From Dehalococcoidia bacterium (GTDB taxonomy: Bacteria; Chloroflexota; Dehalococcoidia; SZUA-161; SpSt-899), in contig JALPYG010000007.1 of assembly GCA_023271215.1 (NCBI GenBank), positions 1-32,980 of the forward strand: 32,980 nucleotides of DNA, read 5' to 3'. The notes below the pieces were generated by a model. It did not search any database. It was not told the origin of the DNA and worked only from the letters and a program-made list of their open reading frames with translations. Numbering within the stretch: the first letter of the stretch is position 1; every line of letters begins with the position of its first letter. Of the stretch, positions 2,975-27,411 are shown in pieces. The position numbers and the translations under genes were made by a program.

Positions 2975-4289
2975 CTATGGGTAGATTCCTCTGAGGGTGA
3001 TAGCCCTTGCTATTCTCCCTATTGCAAGCATATAGGCCGCAGTTCTCATATCCACTTTCTCATGTTGACTGATACTCAGTACTTCCGCAAAGGCGTTAGC
3101 CACTACGTGTTGCAGCTTATCGTTTACCTCGGCTTCATCCCAGAAAAAGGATTGTATCCCCTGCACCCACTCGAAGTATGATACTATCACTCCCCCCGTG
3201 TTAGCCAGGACGTCGGGAATAACAGTTACTCCCTTGTCGCATAGAATCTCATCTGCCTCAGCGGTGGTTGGCCCATTAGCGCCTTCTATGATTAACCTCG
3301 CTTTTATGCGTGAGGCATTGGCTTTGCATATCTGGTCTTCGAGAGCTGCGGGCACCAATATGTCGCATTGTAGTTCCAGGAGTTCAGCGTTGGTTACGGT
3401 TTCGCTATCCTCAAAGCCCAGGACTGAACCGGTTTCCGTCTTGTGACGGAGCACACTTTCTGGATCCAGGCCCTTGGGGTTGTAAATGCCACCCCGGGAA
3501 TCGCTTACTGCTATGACCCGGCAACCTTCTTTGGCCAGCAGTTTGGCTGCCACCCCCCCCCACGTTCCCAAATCCTTGAACAGCAAGCGTTGCCCCTTTG
3601 AGGTCCATCCCCAGATGATTGGCTGCCAGTCTGGCGCTGAGCATACAGCCACGACCGGTGGCCTCGAACCTGCCCTTACTGCCGCCTATTTCCAGAGGCT
3701 TGCCGGTGATCACTCCCAGAACCGAATAACCCTTGTTCATGCTATAGGTATCCATGATCCAGGCCATGATTTGAGGGTTTGTGCCCACATCGGGAGCGGG
3801 GATATCCTTTTCAGGGCCGATCAGGATTGAGATTTCGCTGGCGTAGCGCCGGGTCAACCTCTCCAGTTCGCCCTGCGACATAATCTTCGGATTGCAGATG
3901 ACGCCTCCCTTAGCACCACCGTAGGGGATGCTGACCACCGCGGCCTTCAAAGTCATCCAAACTGCTAAGGCCCGGGTCTCATCCAGGGTAACATCGGGAT
4001 GGTAACGAATCCCGCCCTTTGCCGGCCCCCGGGTATCATTATGCTGAATCCGGAAACCAGTGAAGATTTTCACTTTCCCGTCGTCCATTCTCACCGGGAA
4101 ATTGACCACCAGCTCCCGCTCGCATTTCCTGAGCCGAGCTTGAATTCCTTCATCGATATTCATCCGCTCGCAAATAGCACCAATCTGCTCCTGCACCCGT
4201 TCAAAAGGACTCGCCACTTCGCATAGCGAAGCGTCTGCACTCTCAACTTGTGATCCTTCGACTCCGCTCAGGACAGGTCTTTGAAACAT
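2975..4289 (-). pseudogene. gdhA: Glu/Leu/Phe/Val dehydrogenase, frameshifted in a G9 run
   Basis: This NAD(P)-dependent amino-acid dehydrogenase would be about 437 residues, normal for hexameric GDH. The N-terminal part (from 4289) shows [11 protein letters not shown], the lysine-rich substrate site AKGGV, PAPDVGT and ATGRG. The Rossmann motif GFGNVG is followed at once by a frame break. The plus strand has nine Cs at 3553-3561 (nine Gs in the gene); eight would join GFGNVGG to [13 protein letters not shown] in frame. The C-terminal part then runs to 2975 with intact motifs such as IIEGANGPTT and DVLANTGG. Start: ATG at 4289 has GGGAGG six bases upstream; an in-frame TTG at 4304 is less likely. 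The extra base may be a true mutation, a slippery phase-variable tract or a homopolymer sequencing error. The assignment to GDH rather than leucine DH is not certain. Confidence 0.85.
4217..4276. repeat. Palindrome and CCTGAGCGGAGTCGAAGG-type repeat inside the gdhA N-terminus
   Basis: CTTCGC (4217-4222) and GCGAAG (4226-4231) form a hairpin with an ATA loop. Just beyond it, 4251-4276 carries the minus-strand sequence CCTGAGCGGAGTCGAAGG, which from memory resembles a common dispersed intergenic repeat. Both lie inside the reading frame of the dehydrogenase and encode residues about 5-25, ahead of the conserved domain. This suggests the repeat inserted at, or was recruited into, the start of the gene. 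Confidence 0.5.
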
Positions 4290-4307
4290 CTCTAGCCCTC
4301 CCAATAA

Positions 4308-22737: not shown

Positions 22738-23379
22738 ATGGTACCGATATCGAAAGATAAGGATATTCAAATAGAGAGGCTCGAATTGGGGCCTTTCGGC
22801 ACCAATGCCTACGTGTTGATTTGCCAGAGGACCGGTGACAGCGTGCTGGTGGATGCGCCGGCGCGGGCAAACGACATCTTGAAGGCATTGAAGGACACTG
22901 GGCCGAAATGCATATTGATCACCCATACCCACATGGATCATCTGGGGGCGCTTCCTGAAGTAAAGTCCATGCTTGATATCCCCGTGGCTGTCCATCGTTC
23001 AGAGGCTGAAGGATTGCCCATAGCACCAGATGTGCTGCTGAATGACGGCGATACGATAGCGTTCGGGAACATGGAACTCAAGGTTCTACACACCCCCGGG
23101 CACACTCCAGGAAGTATATGTCTTTTGATAGGCCGACACCTGATATCAGGGGACACCATCTTCCCCGGCGGACCAGGCAAGACCGGCTCACCGGGGGATT
23201 TCAAAGTGATAATCCAATCCATCGCCAGTAAGATACTGGTTCTCCCCGATGATACCCGAATTTATCCCGGACACGGCGATTCAATAATCCTGGGGAAGGC
23301 AAAGGAGGAATTCGCTGTCTTCTCCTCCCGGCCTTACGATCCCGGTCTGTGCGGCGATGTGCTCTGGTTATCGTCGTAG
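22738..23379 (+). CDS. MBL-fold metallo-hydrolase (glyoxalase II-like)
   Basis: 213 residues. The metal-binding set is complete: THTHMDH (H63, H65, D67, H68), HTPGHTPGS (H122), LISGDTIF (D139) and YPGHGDS (H179). The N-terminus LELGPFGTNAYVLIC is typical of hydroxyacylglutathione-hydrolase-like members, which hydrolyse thioesters or related bonds. AGAGGAG lies six bases before the ATG at 22738; the frame is open much further upstream but overlaps the protease gene. The next gene, in convergent orientation, is a PIG-L deacetylase 16 nt away. A link with a thiol pathway there is possible but unproven. Confidence 0.9.
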   Translation: MVPISKDKDIQIERLELGPFGTNAYVLICQRTGDSVLVDAPARANDILKALKDTGPKCILITHTHMDHLGALPEVKSMLDIPVAVHRSEAEGLPIAPDVLLNDGDTIAFGNMELKVLHTPGHTPGSICLLIGRHLISGDTIFPGGPGKTGSPGDFKVIIQSIASKILVLPDDTRIYPGHGDSIILGKAKEEFAVFSSRPYDPGLCGDVLWLSS

Positions 23380-23395
23380 CTCCGGGCAGCGCGGC

Positions 23396-24094
23396 CTACC
23401 ATAATATCTCCACCCGGTGGAAGGCCTCGGCTAATTCGAAATCCTCTTCCTCGGCCAACTGTCGATACCTTTGACAGAGCCGATCTTCCCACTCTGGTGA
23501 CGGGAAATGTCCCACCTGGCTGTCATGGCAGCGCAGGGCAGCCATCTTCACGGCGAAGGTTTCCGTTATGTCGGAGCGATAATTGGGATTCTCGGGGCCC
23601 CAGCACCACACCTCCTTGACTGCATGGGGTTTAAGTCCCTCCTGGAGTAAATCGGGATAGGAAAGATGATCTCTGGCAAATGGGAAGACCGCATCGAGGG
23701 TGACTCGACCAGCGACTCGATGATCACGGTGCCAGATATAACGACGGTGCGGATCTGACGTGGCCACTATTTCCGGCTTGAACCTCCGTATCAAGCGGAC
23801 GATGTCCTTTCTGAACTCAGGGGTATCCTCCAAACCCTGATCGGGATAGCGCAGGAATACCACCTCCCTCACACCCAGCAACCTGGCTGCTGCAAGCTGC
23901 TCCCGCTCCCTGGTCTTCATTAGTTCCTCTGGGCCCATCTTCACATCGTTGGTGCCTTTATCTCCGCTGGTGCACACCGCGTACACGACTTCCTTACCCT
24001 CGGCGGTCCATCGAGCCACTGTTCCCGCAATGCCATATTCGGCATCATCCGGATGCGGGGTAACTACCAGGGCATGAGTCGAGTTGACTCTCAT
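23396..24094 (-). CDS. PIG-L family deacetylase (LmbE/MshB/BshB-like)
   Basis: 232 residues. The zinc site is visible: TPHPDDAEYGIAG (H14, D17) and the later WHRDHRVAG (H122, D124, H125). The family removes N-acetyl groups from GlcNAc-containing glycolipids or glycosides, including the MshB step of mycothiol and the BshB step of bacillithiol synthesis. Length and motif spacing fit the BshB-like subgroup. AGGAGG precedes the ATG at 24094. The gene is divergent from the tandem-GNAT gene with a 104-bp shared intergenic region, and an MshA-like glycosyltransferase lies just beyond, so a sugar-glycoside substrate is likely. Confidence 0.9.
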   Translation of the reverse strand: MRVNSTHALVVTPHPDDAEYGIAGTVARWTAEGKEVVYAVCTSGDKGTNDVKMGPEELMKTREREQLAAARLLGVREVVFLRYPDQGLEDTPEFRKDIVRLIRRFKPEIVATSDPHRRYIWHRDHRVAGRVTLDAVFPFARDHLSYPDLLQEGLKPHAVKEVWCWGPENPNYRSDITETFAVKMAALRCHDSQVGHFPSPEWEDRLCQRYRQLAEEEDFELAEAFHRVEILW

Positions 24095-24131
24095 AAACTG
24101 TCCTCCTGATTTCGTGGTTGGTGTCCGTGAC

Positions 24132-24159
24132 TTGACGGCAGCCTATTTGATTGTATAGT
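24132..24159 (+). promoter_or_regulatory. Promoter of the tandem-GNAT gene, TTGACG-16-TATAGT
   Basis: TTGACG (24132-24137) and TATAGT (24154-24159) are 16 bp apart. An alternative pair, TTGTAT (24151-24156) and TACAAT (24174-24179), has 17-bp spacing. Either would drive the gene starting at the GTG at 24199, which has GGAGG at 24189-24193. The divergent deacetylase promoter must lie in the same 104 bp. Confidence 0.5.
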
Positions 24160-24198
24160 ATCTATTGGCCGGTTACAATTCTCGAGTTGGAGGCATTT

Positions 24199-25122
24199 GT
24201 GAGTGAAATAAGCAGGTCATCCTACGTAGTCAGGAATTACCGTTCGGATGATTTTGAGAGCTACGTTCGACTGAACCTCGAAGTCGCTCATCTGGCCCAA
24301 ACCGAGCGTCTGGCCTCAGCGCAACTCATAGTCGAACGCCTGAGCCGGCCTAACTTTTACCCTGAGCAACATCTCTTTGTAGTTGAGACAGCCGGCAGCA
24401 TCGTTGGGTATTTGGAGGTCACGCCGGAGCTCAAAATCGGACGGGTTATCCTGGACTGTCTGGTGCATCCTAAACATCGCCGAAGGGGTTTAGCTACTAC
24501 ACTCCTTGCCCGCGCCATGCACGCTACGTCAGAGTCAGGGGCCAGGGTGGCTCATGTCAACATTCTGCAGGATAATCCCGGCGCCGCGAATTTGCTATCT
24601 AAGCTCGGATTTGCCCTCGTGCGACGCTTTCTCGAGCTGTCGCTTGACCTTTCGGGTATTGATTTTCCAGATACAGATCACTGGTCCTCCTCATGCTGTC
24701 ACCTGAAGCGTGGTGAGGAGGAGAAACTCGCCCGGATTCAGAATCTTGCCTTCACCGGCACCTGGGGATACAATCCCAACACACCGGACGAAATCGCATA
24801 TCTCATCACTCTCGCCGATCCGGAGGACGTTATCCTGATCTGTGAGGACGGGGAACCGATCGGCTACTGTTGGACCAGGATAGAGTTCGCCGAGGGCGAG
24901 GGCAAAGGGCGCATCTACATGACCGGCGTCCATCCGAGGCACCGCGGAAGGGGGGTGGGGAAAGGGGTGTTGCTTGCGGGATTACGCTATCTTGCGGGCA
25001 AAAAGCTCAAATCTGTTGACTTGACGGTAGACAGCGAGAATACGGTGGCCTGCGCTCTATACCAGTCTCTGGGATTCAAGGTTCAAACTACCAGTTTATG
25101 GTACGAGAAGTCGTTGCAGTAG
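24199..25122 (+). CDS. Tandem GNAT acetyltransferase, MshD-like
   Basis: 307 residues from GTG 24199, with GGAGG five bases upstream; the frame is open to a TTG at 24151. Two GNAT domains follow each other. The first (about 10-150) has CLVHPKHRRRGLATTLL. The second (about 170-305) has IGYCWTRIE, GRIYMTGVHPRHRGRGVGKG and LYQSLGFKV. Size, two-domain plan and the second-domain motifs strongly resemble mycothiol synthase MshD, which acetylates the cysteinyl amine of Cys-GlcN-Ins and uses only its C-terminal domain for catalysis. The substrate is not proven. Its 3' end overlaps the convergent glycosyltransferase gene by 35 bp, and the deacetylase gene is divergent, placing three Msh-type functions side by side. 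Confidence 0.85.
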   Translation: MSEISRSSYVVRNYRSDDFESYVRLNLEVAHLAQTERLASAQLIVERLSRPNFYPEQHLFVVETAGSIVGYLEVTPELKIGRVILDCLVHPKHRRRGLATTLLARAMHATSESGARVAHVNILQDNPGAANLLSKLGFALVRRFLELSLDLSGIDFPDTDHWSSSCCHLKRGEEEKLARIQNLAFTGTWGYNPNTPDEIAYLITLADPEDVILICEDGEPIGYCWTRIEFAEGEGKGRIYMTGVHPRHRGRGVGKGVLLAGLRYLAGKKLKSVDLTVDSENTVACALYQSLGFKVQTTSLWYEKSLQ

Positions 25123-26347
25123 CCGGCCGCCTCATACTCCGAAGCGTTTCCTCATACTGCTTGAGCATCGCAGCGGCTACATTTGACCAGTTGAATCCGG
25201 CTACCGATCCTCGAATGTAGCTGGCAGACCTTATGCCGTTGCTTTGACTTGAAAACAGCGTGGCTATCGTATCTGCCAGGGTTTCCGGGGCGTTGCCGGC
25301 AACTATATAGCCCGTCTCGCCCTGTCGTATCAGGCTCTCAATTCCACCTACTCGGGTAGCTACCACCGGTGTTCCGCAGGCCAGAGATTCCAAAGCCACC
25401 AGCCCGAAGCTCTCATAGTAAGATGGGACCACGCAGACATCGGCAGCGTTATACAATTGAGGCAGGTCTTCCTGACTCATCGAGCCGAGAAAGGCGACTT
25501 GATCGTCGATCTGCAACTGTCTGGACAAGCCTTTTAATCTCTCCACCTCAGATTGGGTTTTGTCGCCCCCGCCGGCCACTATTAGTTTCAGATGGTGTGT
25601 CCTGCTCAGATTGCTTACAGCCACCAACAGGTTCTCGATCCCTTTCAACGGATCGATCCGGCCGACGAACAGGACAACCCTCTCCCCATCCAGGTTCAAT
25701 CGTTGTCGGGCGAGGGTCCGATCCACGGGTTGGAACAATTCTAGATTCACCCCGCATGGGATGACGCTGATGGTATCAGGGGAAGCACCGTAGTGATGAA
25801 CGAGGTCGTCCCTTTCCTTGGTGGTGGCAGCGATAATCCGGTGGCACTTATTGGCCAGATCCTTTTCGGTTTCAATGCGAAGCTTGGCCTCACCCTCACT
25901 GATGCCAACCGCGTTTTTGACCGCGCCCAGAGTGTGGAACATCGTGATATGTGGGATGCCCCACCATTCTTGCATCCGCTCACCCACCCAGCCAGACAGC
26001 CAGTAGTGGCTGTGTATCAGATCGTACCGGATATCGCTGCATTTCCTGAAATCCTCCAGGTTGCAGGCGAATTCATCCAGATGAGGATAGAGCGCCAGCT
26101 TATCAATATCTCTCTCTTCCCCGGCATTGAGGTGAATAAGACGGGCTTTGAGGCCCAGCTCAACAACGAGGTCGTCGTTGGGGTCGTGCACCCGGGTGTA
26201 GACGTCTACCAGGTGCCCGCGCCTGCCCAACTGGCGGGCCAGTTCCCGGACGTAAACACTCATGCCGCCAGTGTCCTTCTCCCCCAGCCTGCCCAGGGGG
26301 CAACTGTGAACACTGAGCATCGCTATTTTGAGCCGTCTTGCACCCAT
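25088..26347 (-). CDS. GT4 glycosyltransferase, MshA-like
   Basis: 419 residues with the GT-B fold. The N-terminal domain has IAMLSVHSCPLG, the donor/acceptor loop DTGGMSVYVRELA (25-37), DLIHSHYWLSGWVG (109-122) and FHTLGAVKNA (137-146). These are all close to actinobacterial MshA, the D-inositol-3-phosphate N-acetylglucosaminyltransferase. The C-terminal domain has VLFVGRIDPLKG and the nucleotide-sugar site YYESFGLVALESLACGTPVVA. The same pattern also occurs in sucrose-phosphate and other GT4 enzymes, so the acceptor is an inference from neighbours. It is the last gene of the serS-ribF-tyrS-carboxyltransferase-acetyltransferase run. A small palindrome (TTCACGA/TCGTGAA, 26357-26372) sits just before the start. 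Confidence 0.88.
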   Translation of the reverse strand: MGARRLKIAMLSVHSCPLGRLGEKDTGGMSVYVRELARQLGRRGHLVDVYTRVHDPNDDLVVELGLKARLIHLNAGEERDIDKLALYPHLDEFACNLEDFRKCSDIRYDLIHSHYWLSGWVGERMQEWWGIPHITMFHTLGAVKNAVGISEGEAKLRIETEKDLANKCHRIIAATTKERDDLVHHYGASPDTISVIPCGVNLELFQPVDRTLARQRLNLDGERVVLFVGRIDPLKGIENLLVAVSNLSRTHHLKLIVAGGGDKTQSEVERLKGLSRQLQIDDQVAFLGSMSQEDLPQLYNAADVCVVPSYYESFGLVALESLACGTPVVATRVGGIESLIRQGETGYIVAGNAPETLADTIATLFSSQSNGIRSASYIRGSVAGFNWSNVAAAMLKQYEETLRSMRRPATATTSRTINW

Positions 26348-26380
26348 AATTTTGCATTCACGAAGTCGTGAACAGAGGGC

Positions 26381-26410
26381 CTTCAGCCTTCAGTCTTCAG
26401 TCTATCTACC
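26381..26410. repeat. Heptad array CTTCAGC/CTTCAGT with TCTATCTACC tail
   Basis: Units CTTCAGC, CTTCAGT, CTTCAGT (26381-26401), followed by CTATCTACC. The same unit order and tail occur at 19032-19052 but with one fewer unit, a clean example of 7-nt copy-number change between otherwise collinear copies. It occupies the 74-nt gap between the BioF2-like and glycosyltransferase genes. Confidence 0.8.
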
Positions 26411-26421
26411 TGCTGCCGCGC

Positions 26422-27411
26422 TTAACATAGGGTTATCCGGCAATCGTAGAGCGGAATTTCCTTGCCTCCCAGGCGATACTTGTAACCTTCAGCGCCCCTC
26501 AGGAAATCGAACCTCTTTCTGCCCCTCTGGATGCTGTTCTGGATACAGAAAACTTTAGAAAGCACTCCCACGCTCAAGGAGGCATAACGGGGATCGTAGC
26601 CGCTATTGTAGAGATAGATAGTACCGCGATAATCCAGGCACATGACCGCGGCGACGGGCATGGCATCGATCTTAAGGATTCCCAATCTGACGATGTCAGC
26701 CATAGCCTCTGCTAACGACCTGAAAAACGATTCCATCTCAGCGGTCATGAATGCTGCTTTGTCTTCCCTGTTTGCTCGAAAGAGTCGCAGAAAGAACTCC
26801 GTGGATTCCCGTGGATCCTCTTCAATGGAGTACTCTATCTCCCCAGCTTCCCTCAACCTTCTCAACTTGCGTCTCACCTCGTGGCGTTGCTTTGGGCTTA
26901 GCATCTCAAGATATTCTTCCCAGGTGGCGGGCAGATCAAGTTCCAGCGAAACACCCAGGGGCTCGCAAGAAACCGCCAGCCCCCTCTCCCGGGCGATTCT
27001 TGCTAAGCTGGTAAGCACCGTGGAATCCGGCCTGAGCGATAGCAACTCCAGGGAGACGATCCCCGACTCGGCCAGACTGGTGAGCAGCGTGTTGAAGAAA
27101 TCCGCCTCTCTTTCCGGGGCAACCACGAAATCCAGATAATCACAAACATCAGGGCTCCCCATGAAGGAAGCCCTGTTCCCCTTCAGTAAGAGAGGGGCAA
27201 CGCCGATAACGGCATCGCCATCCCTCACTGCGCACAGATACTGCTCTGTTCCCTTGCCGAATTTGTCCCACCAGGTCTTAATCCAGCCAGGTGTAACGAA
27301 GAGGGAGTCTGCCGTGGTGCGGAGACATAACTTGCTCCATGCTGGGGCAAGGCTGACAAAAGTCTCCCGGGTAAGGCTATAGCTCATGGGGGCATGTGGA
27401 AATGGCTGCAC
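26422..27411 (-). CDS. BioF2/FemAB-like GNAT-fold acyltransferase (Acetyltransf_6)
   Basis: 329 residues. The layout fits the BioF2-like/CelD family (PF13480). An N-terminal half has LFVTPGWIKTWWDKFG and CDYLDFVVAPE. A KQRHEVRRKLRRLREAG helix near 170-190 comes next. The C-terminal half has AAVMCLDYRGTIYLYNSGYD and FDFLRGAEGYKYRLGG. Relatives act in polysaccharide and FemAB-type amino-acyl transfer; the donor is unknown. The GTG start at 27411 is one base after the upstream carboxyltransferase stop, so translation is probably coupled; ATG 27387 is an alternative. The position between the carboxyltransferase and MshA-like glycosyltransferase genes makes a role in the same glycoside pathway plausible. 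Confidence 0.82.
   Translation of the reverse strand: MQPFPHAPMSYSLTRETFVSLAPAWSKLCLRTTADSLFVTPGWIKTWWDKFGKGTEQYLCAVRDGDAVIGVAPLLLKGNRASFMGSPDVCDYLDFVVAPEREADFFNTLLTSLAESGIVSLELLSLRPDSTVLTSLARIARERGLAVSCEPLGVSLELDLPATWEEYLEMLSPKQRHEVRRKLRRLREAGEIEYSIEEDPRESTEFFLRLFRANREDKAAFMTAEMESFFRSLAEAMADIVRLGILKIDAMPVAAVMCLDYRGTIYLYNSGYDPRYASLSVGVLSKVFCIQNSIQRGRKRFDFLRGAEGYKYRLGGKEIPLYDCRITLC

Follow-up and report, generated by a model that had tools for sequence, protein, structure and literature searches.

Here we describe a five-gene cluster in the genome of a Dehalococcoidia bacterium (GCA_023271215.1) that probably encodes a mycothiol-type low-molecular-weight thiol pathway, in which a FemX-fold, BioF2/FemAB-like protein (PF13480; hereafter BioF2) would replace MshC as cysteinyl transferase. 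The cluster spans positions 22738-27411 of the window, the 32,980-nucleotide stretch of contig JALPYG010000007.1 that was analysed, and comprises genes for an MBL-fold hydrolase, a PIG-L deacetylase, a tandem GNAT protein, a GT4 glycosyltransferase and BioF2 (Table 1). Mycothiol is a protective small thiol thought to be special to actinobacteria, which make it through Ino1, MshA, a phosphatase, MshB, MshC and MshD. In the route proposed here, inositol phosphate (Ins-P) would come from an inositol-phosphate synthase encoded elsewhere in the genome, the GT4 would add N-acetylglucosamine (GlcNAc) to it from UDP-GlcNAc, some phosphatase would remove the phosphate, and PIG-L would deacetylate the product to glucosaminyl-inositol (GlcN-Ins). 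BioF2 would then transfer cysteine to the glucosamine amine, most likely from Cys-tRNA(Cys), and the cysteine would be N-acetylated in lineages with the tandem GNAT, the source genome's included. Within this scheme the GlcN-inositol backbone is well supported and cysteine as the group that BioF2 adds is moderately supported; the proposal of a tRNA donor, which draws on analogy and one domain, we regard as evenly balanced.

The GT4 is nearest MshA and keeps the putative inositol-phosphate ligands. It carries GGM, HSHYWLSG and HTLGAVKNA motifs and scores 354.8 bits on the NCBIfam MshA model TIGR03449, below the curated cut-off of 462.5; its best match in the PDB is Corynebacterium glutamicum MshA (3c48/3c4q, E 2.7e-79), with cyanobacterial sucrose-phosphate synthase (SPS) second, and a family profile gives 412 bits to MshA versus 384 to cyanobacterial SPS (6kih). 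MshA residues K78, Y110, T134 and R154, which we take to be its inositol-phosphate ligands, align with K83, Y115, T139 and R157 of the GT4. Across a sample of 148 genomes from the window's class, to which all class counts below refer, the tyrosine, threonine and arginine are kept in 108 of 109 GT4s and the lysine in 83 of 109; in GT4s of other loci (59/59) the former three are likewise kept. At the T134 site, SPS has serine whereas nearly all of the GT4s have threonine. Inositol-phosphate synthase, for which the first-pass annotation had proposed a search of the full genome, was found both in the source genome (PF01658 match at G000:C65:1920-2246) and in 142 of the 148 class genomes, with the C. 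glutamicum control positive. A second probe for it, PF07994, matched only 14 of the 148 and missed the C. glutamicum control, and PF01658 was used instead.

The cluster shares with the bacillithiol pathway (BshA, BshB, BshC) a GT4, a PIG-L that scores best on BshB1 and, as proposed, a cysteine on a GlcN glycoside. That reading was set aside because BshC (PF10079) was found in none of the 148 class genomes, with Bacillus subtilis, Thermus and Deinobacterium controls positive, and because the GT4 is far closer to MshA (355 bits) than to BshA (115 bits on TIGR03999, cut-off 274); inositol rather than malate would be the expected aglycone. The BshC result also speaks against a complete bacillithiol pathway elsewhere in the genome, an objection that the first-pass annotation had raised against itself.

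The metal and catalytic motifs of PIG-L, HPDD and HxDH, are invariant (76/76), and its deacetylase family is as first annotated; the MshB subfamily is not, in that PIG-L scores 43 bits on MshB (cut-off 224) versus 104 on BshB1, its BshB scores also falling below cut-off, and lies nearer the BshB1/chitobiose deacetylases. The tandem GNAT, predicted to be MshD-like, scores 114 bits on TIGR03448, below the curated cut-off of 163, and matches MshD in the PDB (1ozp/2c27, E 2e-18); in a fold search MshD stood at ranks 4-5, with template-modelling (TM) scores of 0.70-0.76 (0.76 to 2c27). Tyr294, like Glu234 a residue to which we assume a role in MshD, has its equivalent kept in 22 of 22 GNATs. A placement of GT4 and GNAT far from MshA and MshD, the outcome named beforehand as damaging to the idea, was thus not seen, both being nearest these enzymes by sequence. 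The GNAT is optional within the pathway. The MBL gene adjoins PIG-L or BioF2 in relatives, and its product is possibly a thiol-ester or thiol-dependent hydrolase.

The grouping of these genes is not due to chance. At a threshold of E <= 1e-60, 109 of the 148 class genomes have GT4 orthologues, and 102 have BioF2 orthologues; where both occur, in 92 genomes, BioF2 is the gene immediately upstream of GT4 in 87, spread over 49 families, with a median gap of 33 bp between hits. In 71 genomes a same-strand PIG-L gene lies no more than 4 kb downstream of GT4. Other families of the class also have five-gene clusters, about 40-60% identical to this one and differing in the details of gene order, and the outer neighbours of BioF2-GT4 change between genomes: one family with genomes of 1.4-1.9 Mb, mostly single-contig, has an operon of BioF2-GT4-PIGL alone, and other class genomes have a hom-thrC-folE-BioF2-GT4-PIGL-ccsA context. 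Dehalococcoidales and SAR202 records are among the named loci. Indeed, the linkage proposed as a check on the first-pass reading is maintained both within the class and outside it.

The case for BioF2 as a replacement for MshC comes chiefly from its distribution. The only CysS in the source genome is full-length, and a search there for an MshC-like gene found none, as in its relatives. Short CysS paralogues of 383-421 residues without the anticodon-binding end occur in 28 class genomes; they form one clade (support 93/86), and all 28 keep the cysteine- and zinc-site residues C43, T46, T83, C231 and H256 (roles from PMC9736012) together with the KMSKS lysine. We call these MshC-like on length, tree position and residues, as the score on the MshC model does not separate them and alone would be no proof. 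Among the 109 genomes with GT4, 80 have BioF2 without an MshC-like gene, many of them more than 95% complete (>95%) and some single-contig; 16 have the MshC-like gene without BioF2, 12 have both and 1 has neither. The last (G073), an assembly with 63% completeness, has folE directly next to GT4, as do 12 of the 17 BioF2-less genomes. Parsimony on the GT4 tree gives 8 changes in BioF2, with the MshC-like gene present in 7 of 8 BioF2-less groups; two of the changes fall within families (G042 versus G072, and G106 versus the rest of f36). BioF2 and the MshC-like protein thus look like substitutes, with near-complementary distributions and the same proposed product, Cys-GlcN-Ins. Their folds are unrelated, and BioF2 would take Cys-tRNA from an ordinary CysRS rather than cysteinyl adenylate (Cys-AMP). 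Some class genomes also encode a second CysS-like protein (722-751 residues; L149-L152) that branches deeply and has a long extension at its C-terminus; frames of about 760-850 residues represent it in many of the 27 further genomes described below.

The predicted structure of BioF2 is consistent with aminoacyl transfer. No match was found in a sequence-profile search of the PDB; an AlphaFold2 model from 53 sequences (predicted local distance difference test, pLDDT, 95.2; predicted TM score, pTM, 0.90) has the double-GNAT fold, and Foldseek ranks as its top PDB folds FemX, Sbb17/Sba18, FemA, MprF and alanyl-phosphatidylglycerol synthase (FemX 4ii9: E 1.6e-12, TM 0.62). Invariant columns number 12 in one alignment (A1) and 20 in another (A2), the latter including E308, Y310 and K311. 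FemX uses Lys305 (PMC12945691), and K311, near the C-terminus, is the candidate equivalent; helix 173-189 is strongly basic. BioF2 differs from FemABX, MprF and Sbb17 in having no detectable sequence match to their structures, in belonging to PF13480 and not the FemAB family, and in its proposed substrate, GlcN-inositol. Sbb17 and Sba18 are aminoacyl-tRNA-dependent synthases that act on streptothrisamine, an amino-sugar acceptor (PMC12945691), and by analogy may offer a close precedent for BioF2 acting on an amino sugar.

Further support comes from outside the Chloroflexota. A scan of a genome collection found the cluster in metagenome-assembled genomes (MAGs) labelled Desulfobacterota/Deltaproteobacteria and Bacillota/Syntrophomonadaceae, as well as BioF2 plus GNAT without GT4 in a Poribacteria MAG; MAG labels can err, one titled Pseudomonadota (L251) resembling the class cluster. 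In two loci (L266, L284) Ino1 lies immediately upstream of BioF2-GT4, and Ino1 is present in 24 of the 27 genomes from which such loci, most of them carrying labels of other phyla, come. Contig-end-cut hits aside, none of these 27 genomes has a CysS of MshC size, their CysS hits being full-length or of about 760-850 residues. In 11 loci (L283, at 469-1722, L258, L259, L272, L275, L278, L293, L294, L298, L299 and L301), mostly Desulfobacterota MAGs, a gene fusing a Peptidase_S51-like domain to CysS_C, the CysRS anticodon-binding domain (28.2 bits, cut-off 23), lies upstream of BioF2, in L299 with a gap of 26 bp. This neighbour is a candidate, indirect link to tRNA-Cys. Together, the near-complementary distribution, the FemX-like fold and the CysS_C neighbour strengthen what had first been a guess, that BioF2 replaces MshC.

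Also encoded at these loci are Gfo/Idh/MocA oxidoreductases (L298:4846-5871, L307:2182-3843), which in several Desulfobacterota loci lie between the S51-CysS_C gene and BioF2, and, by the BioF2 cluster of L294, L296, L297, L304 and L306, a protein of ~623 residues with apparently acetyl-CoA hydrolase/transferase-like and GNAT parts.

A possible use for the product is suggested by PF11716, the mycothiol-dependent isomerase domain, which is found in 70 of 109 class genomes with GT4 versus 2 of 39 without it, and in 43 of the 80 genomes with BioF2 and no MshC-like gene, counts that are uncorrected for genome size and lifestyle. Among 14 controls, it occurs only in Bacillus, Thermus, Deinobacterium and Corynebacterium, three of which also have BshC.

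Several observations weigh against a cysteinyl-transferring BioF2 in a mycothiol-type pathway. The Fisher p of 8e-11 for the BioF2 and MshC-like distributions is inflated by relatedness among the genomes, an independent-pair test on well-supported branches had only 3 pairs and so no power, and the genomes with both genes make the exclusion less than strict. The short CysS paralogues score no higher than ordinary CysS on the NCBIfam MshC model. The source genome is 68% complete, so that the absence of an MshC-like gene rests on its relatives, and no PF11716 match was found in it. In three members of the window's genus or family (G004, G006 and G007; 81-96% complete) no orthologues of BioF2, GT4 or PIG-L were found, so that even near relatives differ in whether they have the pathway. 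PIG-L is not specifically MshB, which departs from a strict match to mycothiol synthesis, and the equivalent of MshD Glu234 is not kept in the GNAT. No tRNA-Cys gene was found in a search near the clusters. Lastly, a FemX-like fold is expected of PF13480 proteins generally, and because of this the fold supports tRNA use by BioF2 without proving it.

The alternative that fares best keeps the same GlcN-inositol backbone and has BioF2 attach an acyl group or an amino acid other than cysteine, so that the product would be a compatible solute or a non-thiol amino-sugar glycoside. PF13480 is a diverse family, a wide range of amino acids is used by aminoacyl-tRNA-dependent relatives (PMC12945691), and the 12 genomes with both genes would suit this view; yet BioF2 is swapped for a cysteine-specific CysRS paralogue that keeps all of its cysteine and zinc residues, it has a CysS_C-domain neighbour, and PF11716 co-occurs with the pathway, which together make this alternative unlikely. 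Far less probable is a standard mycothiol pathway in which MshC is merely missing from an incomplete assembly and BioF2 does something extra: the incomplete state of the source genome and the same 12 genomes would allow it, but the 80 genomes described above and the want of an MshC-size CysS in the 27 genomes mostly labelled as other phyla speak against it. We find equally hard to credit a membrane glycolipid, in which the GT4 would act on a phosphatidylinositol-type lipid, PIG-L would deacetylate it as in glycosylphosphatidylinositol (GPI) anchors and BioF2 would aminoacylate or acylate it as MprF does. Here Ino1, which genomes lacking GT4 carry as well, can feed phosphatidylinositol, and PIG-L and MprF, the latter among the fold matches, are precedents; however, the GT4 is nearest soluble MshA and not the PimA or PIG-A types, and the exchange with MshC-like genes, the PF11716 association and the MshD-like tandem GNAT all run counter to a lipid product. 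That the genes are unrelated, an SPS-like GT4 among housekeeping neighbours, is extremely improbable: SPS is the second-best relative, 28 profile bits behind MshA, but BioF2-GT4 adjacency persists in 49 families despite changing outer neighbours, the T134 site has Thr rather than the Ser of SPS in nearly all, and the operon holds a BshB/chitobiose-type deacetylase.

Table 1. Genes of the cluster, with window coordinates, strand and domain or model match.
Feature	Position	Strand	Match
BioF2/FemAB-like double-GNAT protein, proposed cysteinyl transferase replacing MshC	26422..27411	-	PF13480 112 bits
MshA-like GT4 glycosyltransferase, proposed maker of GlcNAc-inositol-phosphate	25088..26347	-	TIGR03449 354.8 bits
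Tandem GNAT acetyltransferase, MshD-like; optional final N-acetylation	24151..25122	+	TIGR03448 114 bits
PIG-L family deacetylase, proposed GlcNAc-inositol deacetylase	23396..24094	-	PF02585 120 bits
MBL-fold (glyoxalase II-like) hydrolase, conserved neighbour	22738..23379	+	PF00753, GloB-like

Domain and profile scans of the window recovered every gene and motif of the first-pass annotation in its place, including the convergent MBL gene next to PIG-L. BioF2 does belong to the glycosyltransferase operon, only it precedes GT4 in transcription and does not follow it; a carboxyltransferase gene ends one base before BioF2. The GNAT and GT4 genes are convergent with a 35-bp overlap, and the GNAT may start at a TTG (323 residues) or, more probably, at the GTG at 24199 (307 residues). 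Elsewhere in the window are a glutamate-dehydrogenase-like gene at 2975-4304, apparently split by a frameshift into overlapping open reading frames (3411-4304 and 2975-3652), and, at the window edge (171-1064), a frame that reads like a truncated transposase.

The pathway proposed here, with BioF2 in place of MshC, resembles actinobacterial mycothiol synthesis in its MshA-like GT4, Ino1, PIG-L and MshD-like GNAT, and some relatives have the MshC-like CysS paralogue; it differs in BioF2 itself, in the BshB1/chitobiose type of PIG-L, in the sub-cut-off scores of GT4 and GNAT, and in its occurrence in Dehalococcoidia, Desulfobacterota and Bacillota MAGs. By the criteria of Hiras 2018, the full mshA-D set is found only in Actinobacteria (PMC6282198). 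Our literature search found no report of such a pathway, which does not prove that none exists. Thiols have been called understudied in anaerobes (PMC9874932), and little is known of the principal thiols in Dehalococcoidia, many sulfate reducers and other strict anaerobes. We tentatively suggest, at slightly less than even confidence, that anaerobic Chloroflexota, Desulfobacterota and Bacillota make a mycothiol-family thiol with a FemX-fold enzyme that takes cysteine from Cys-tRNA(Cys) and joins it to GlcN-inositol, which, after MshC and BshC, would be the third independent way of ligating cysteine. If true, a mycothiol-type thiol would be widespread outside Actinobacteria, a new class of enzyme would join cysteine to amino sugars, and the finding would matter for understanding how anaerobes that cycle organohalides and metals deal with redox, metals and electrophiles.

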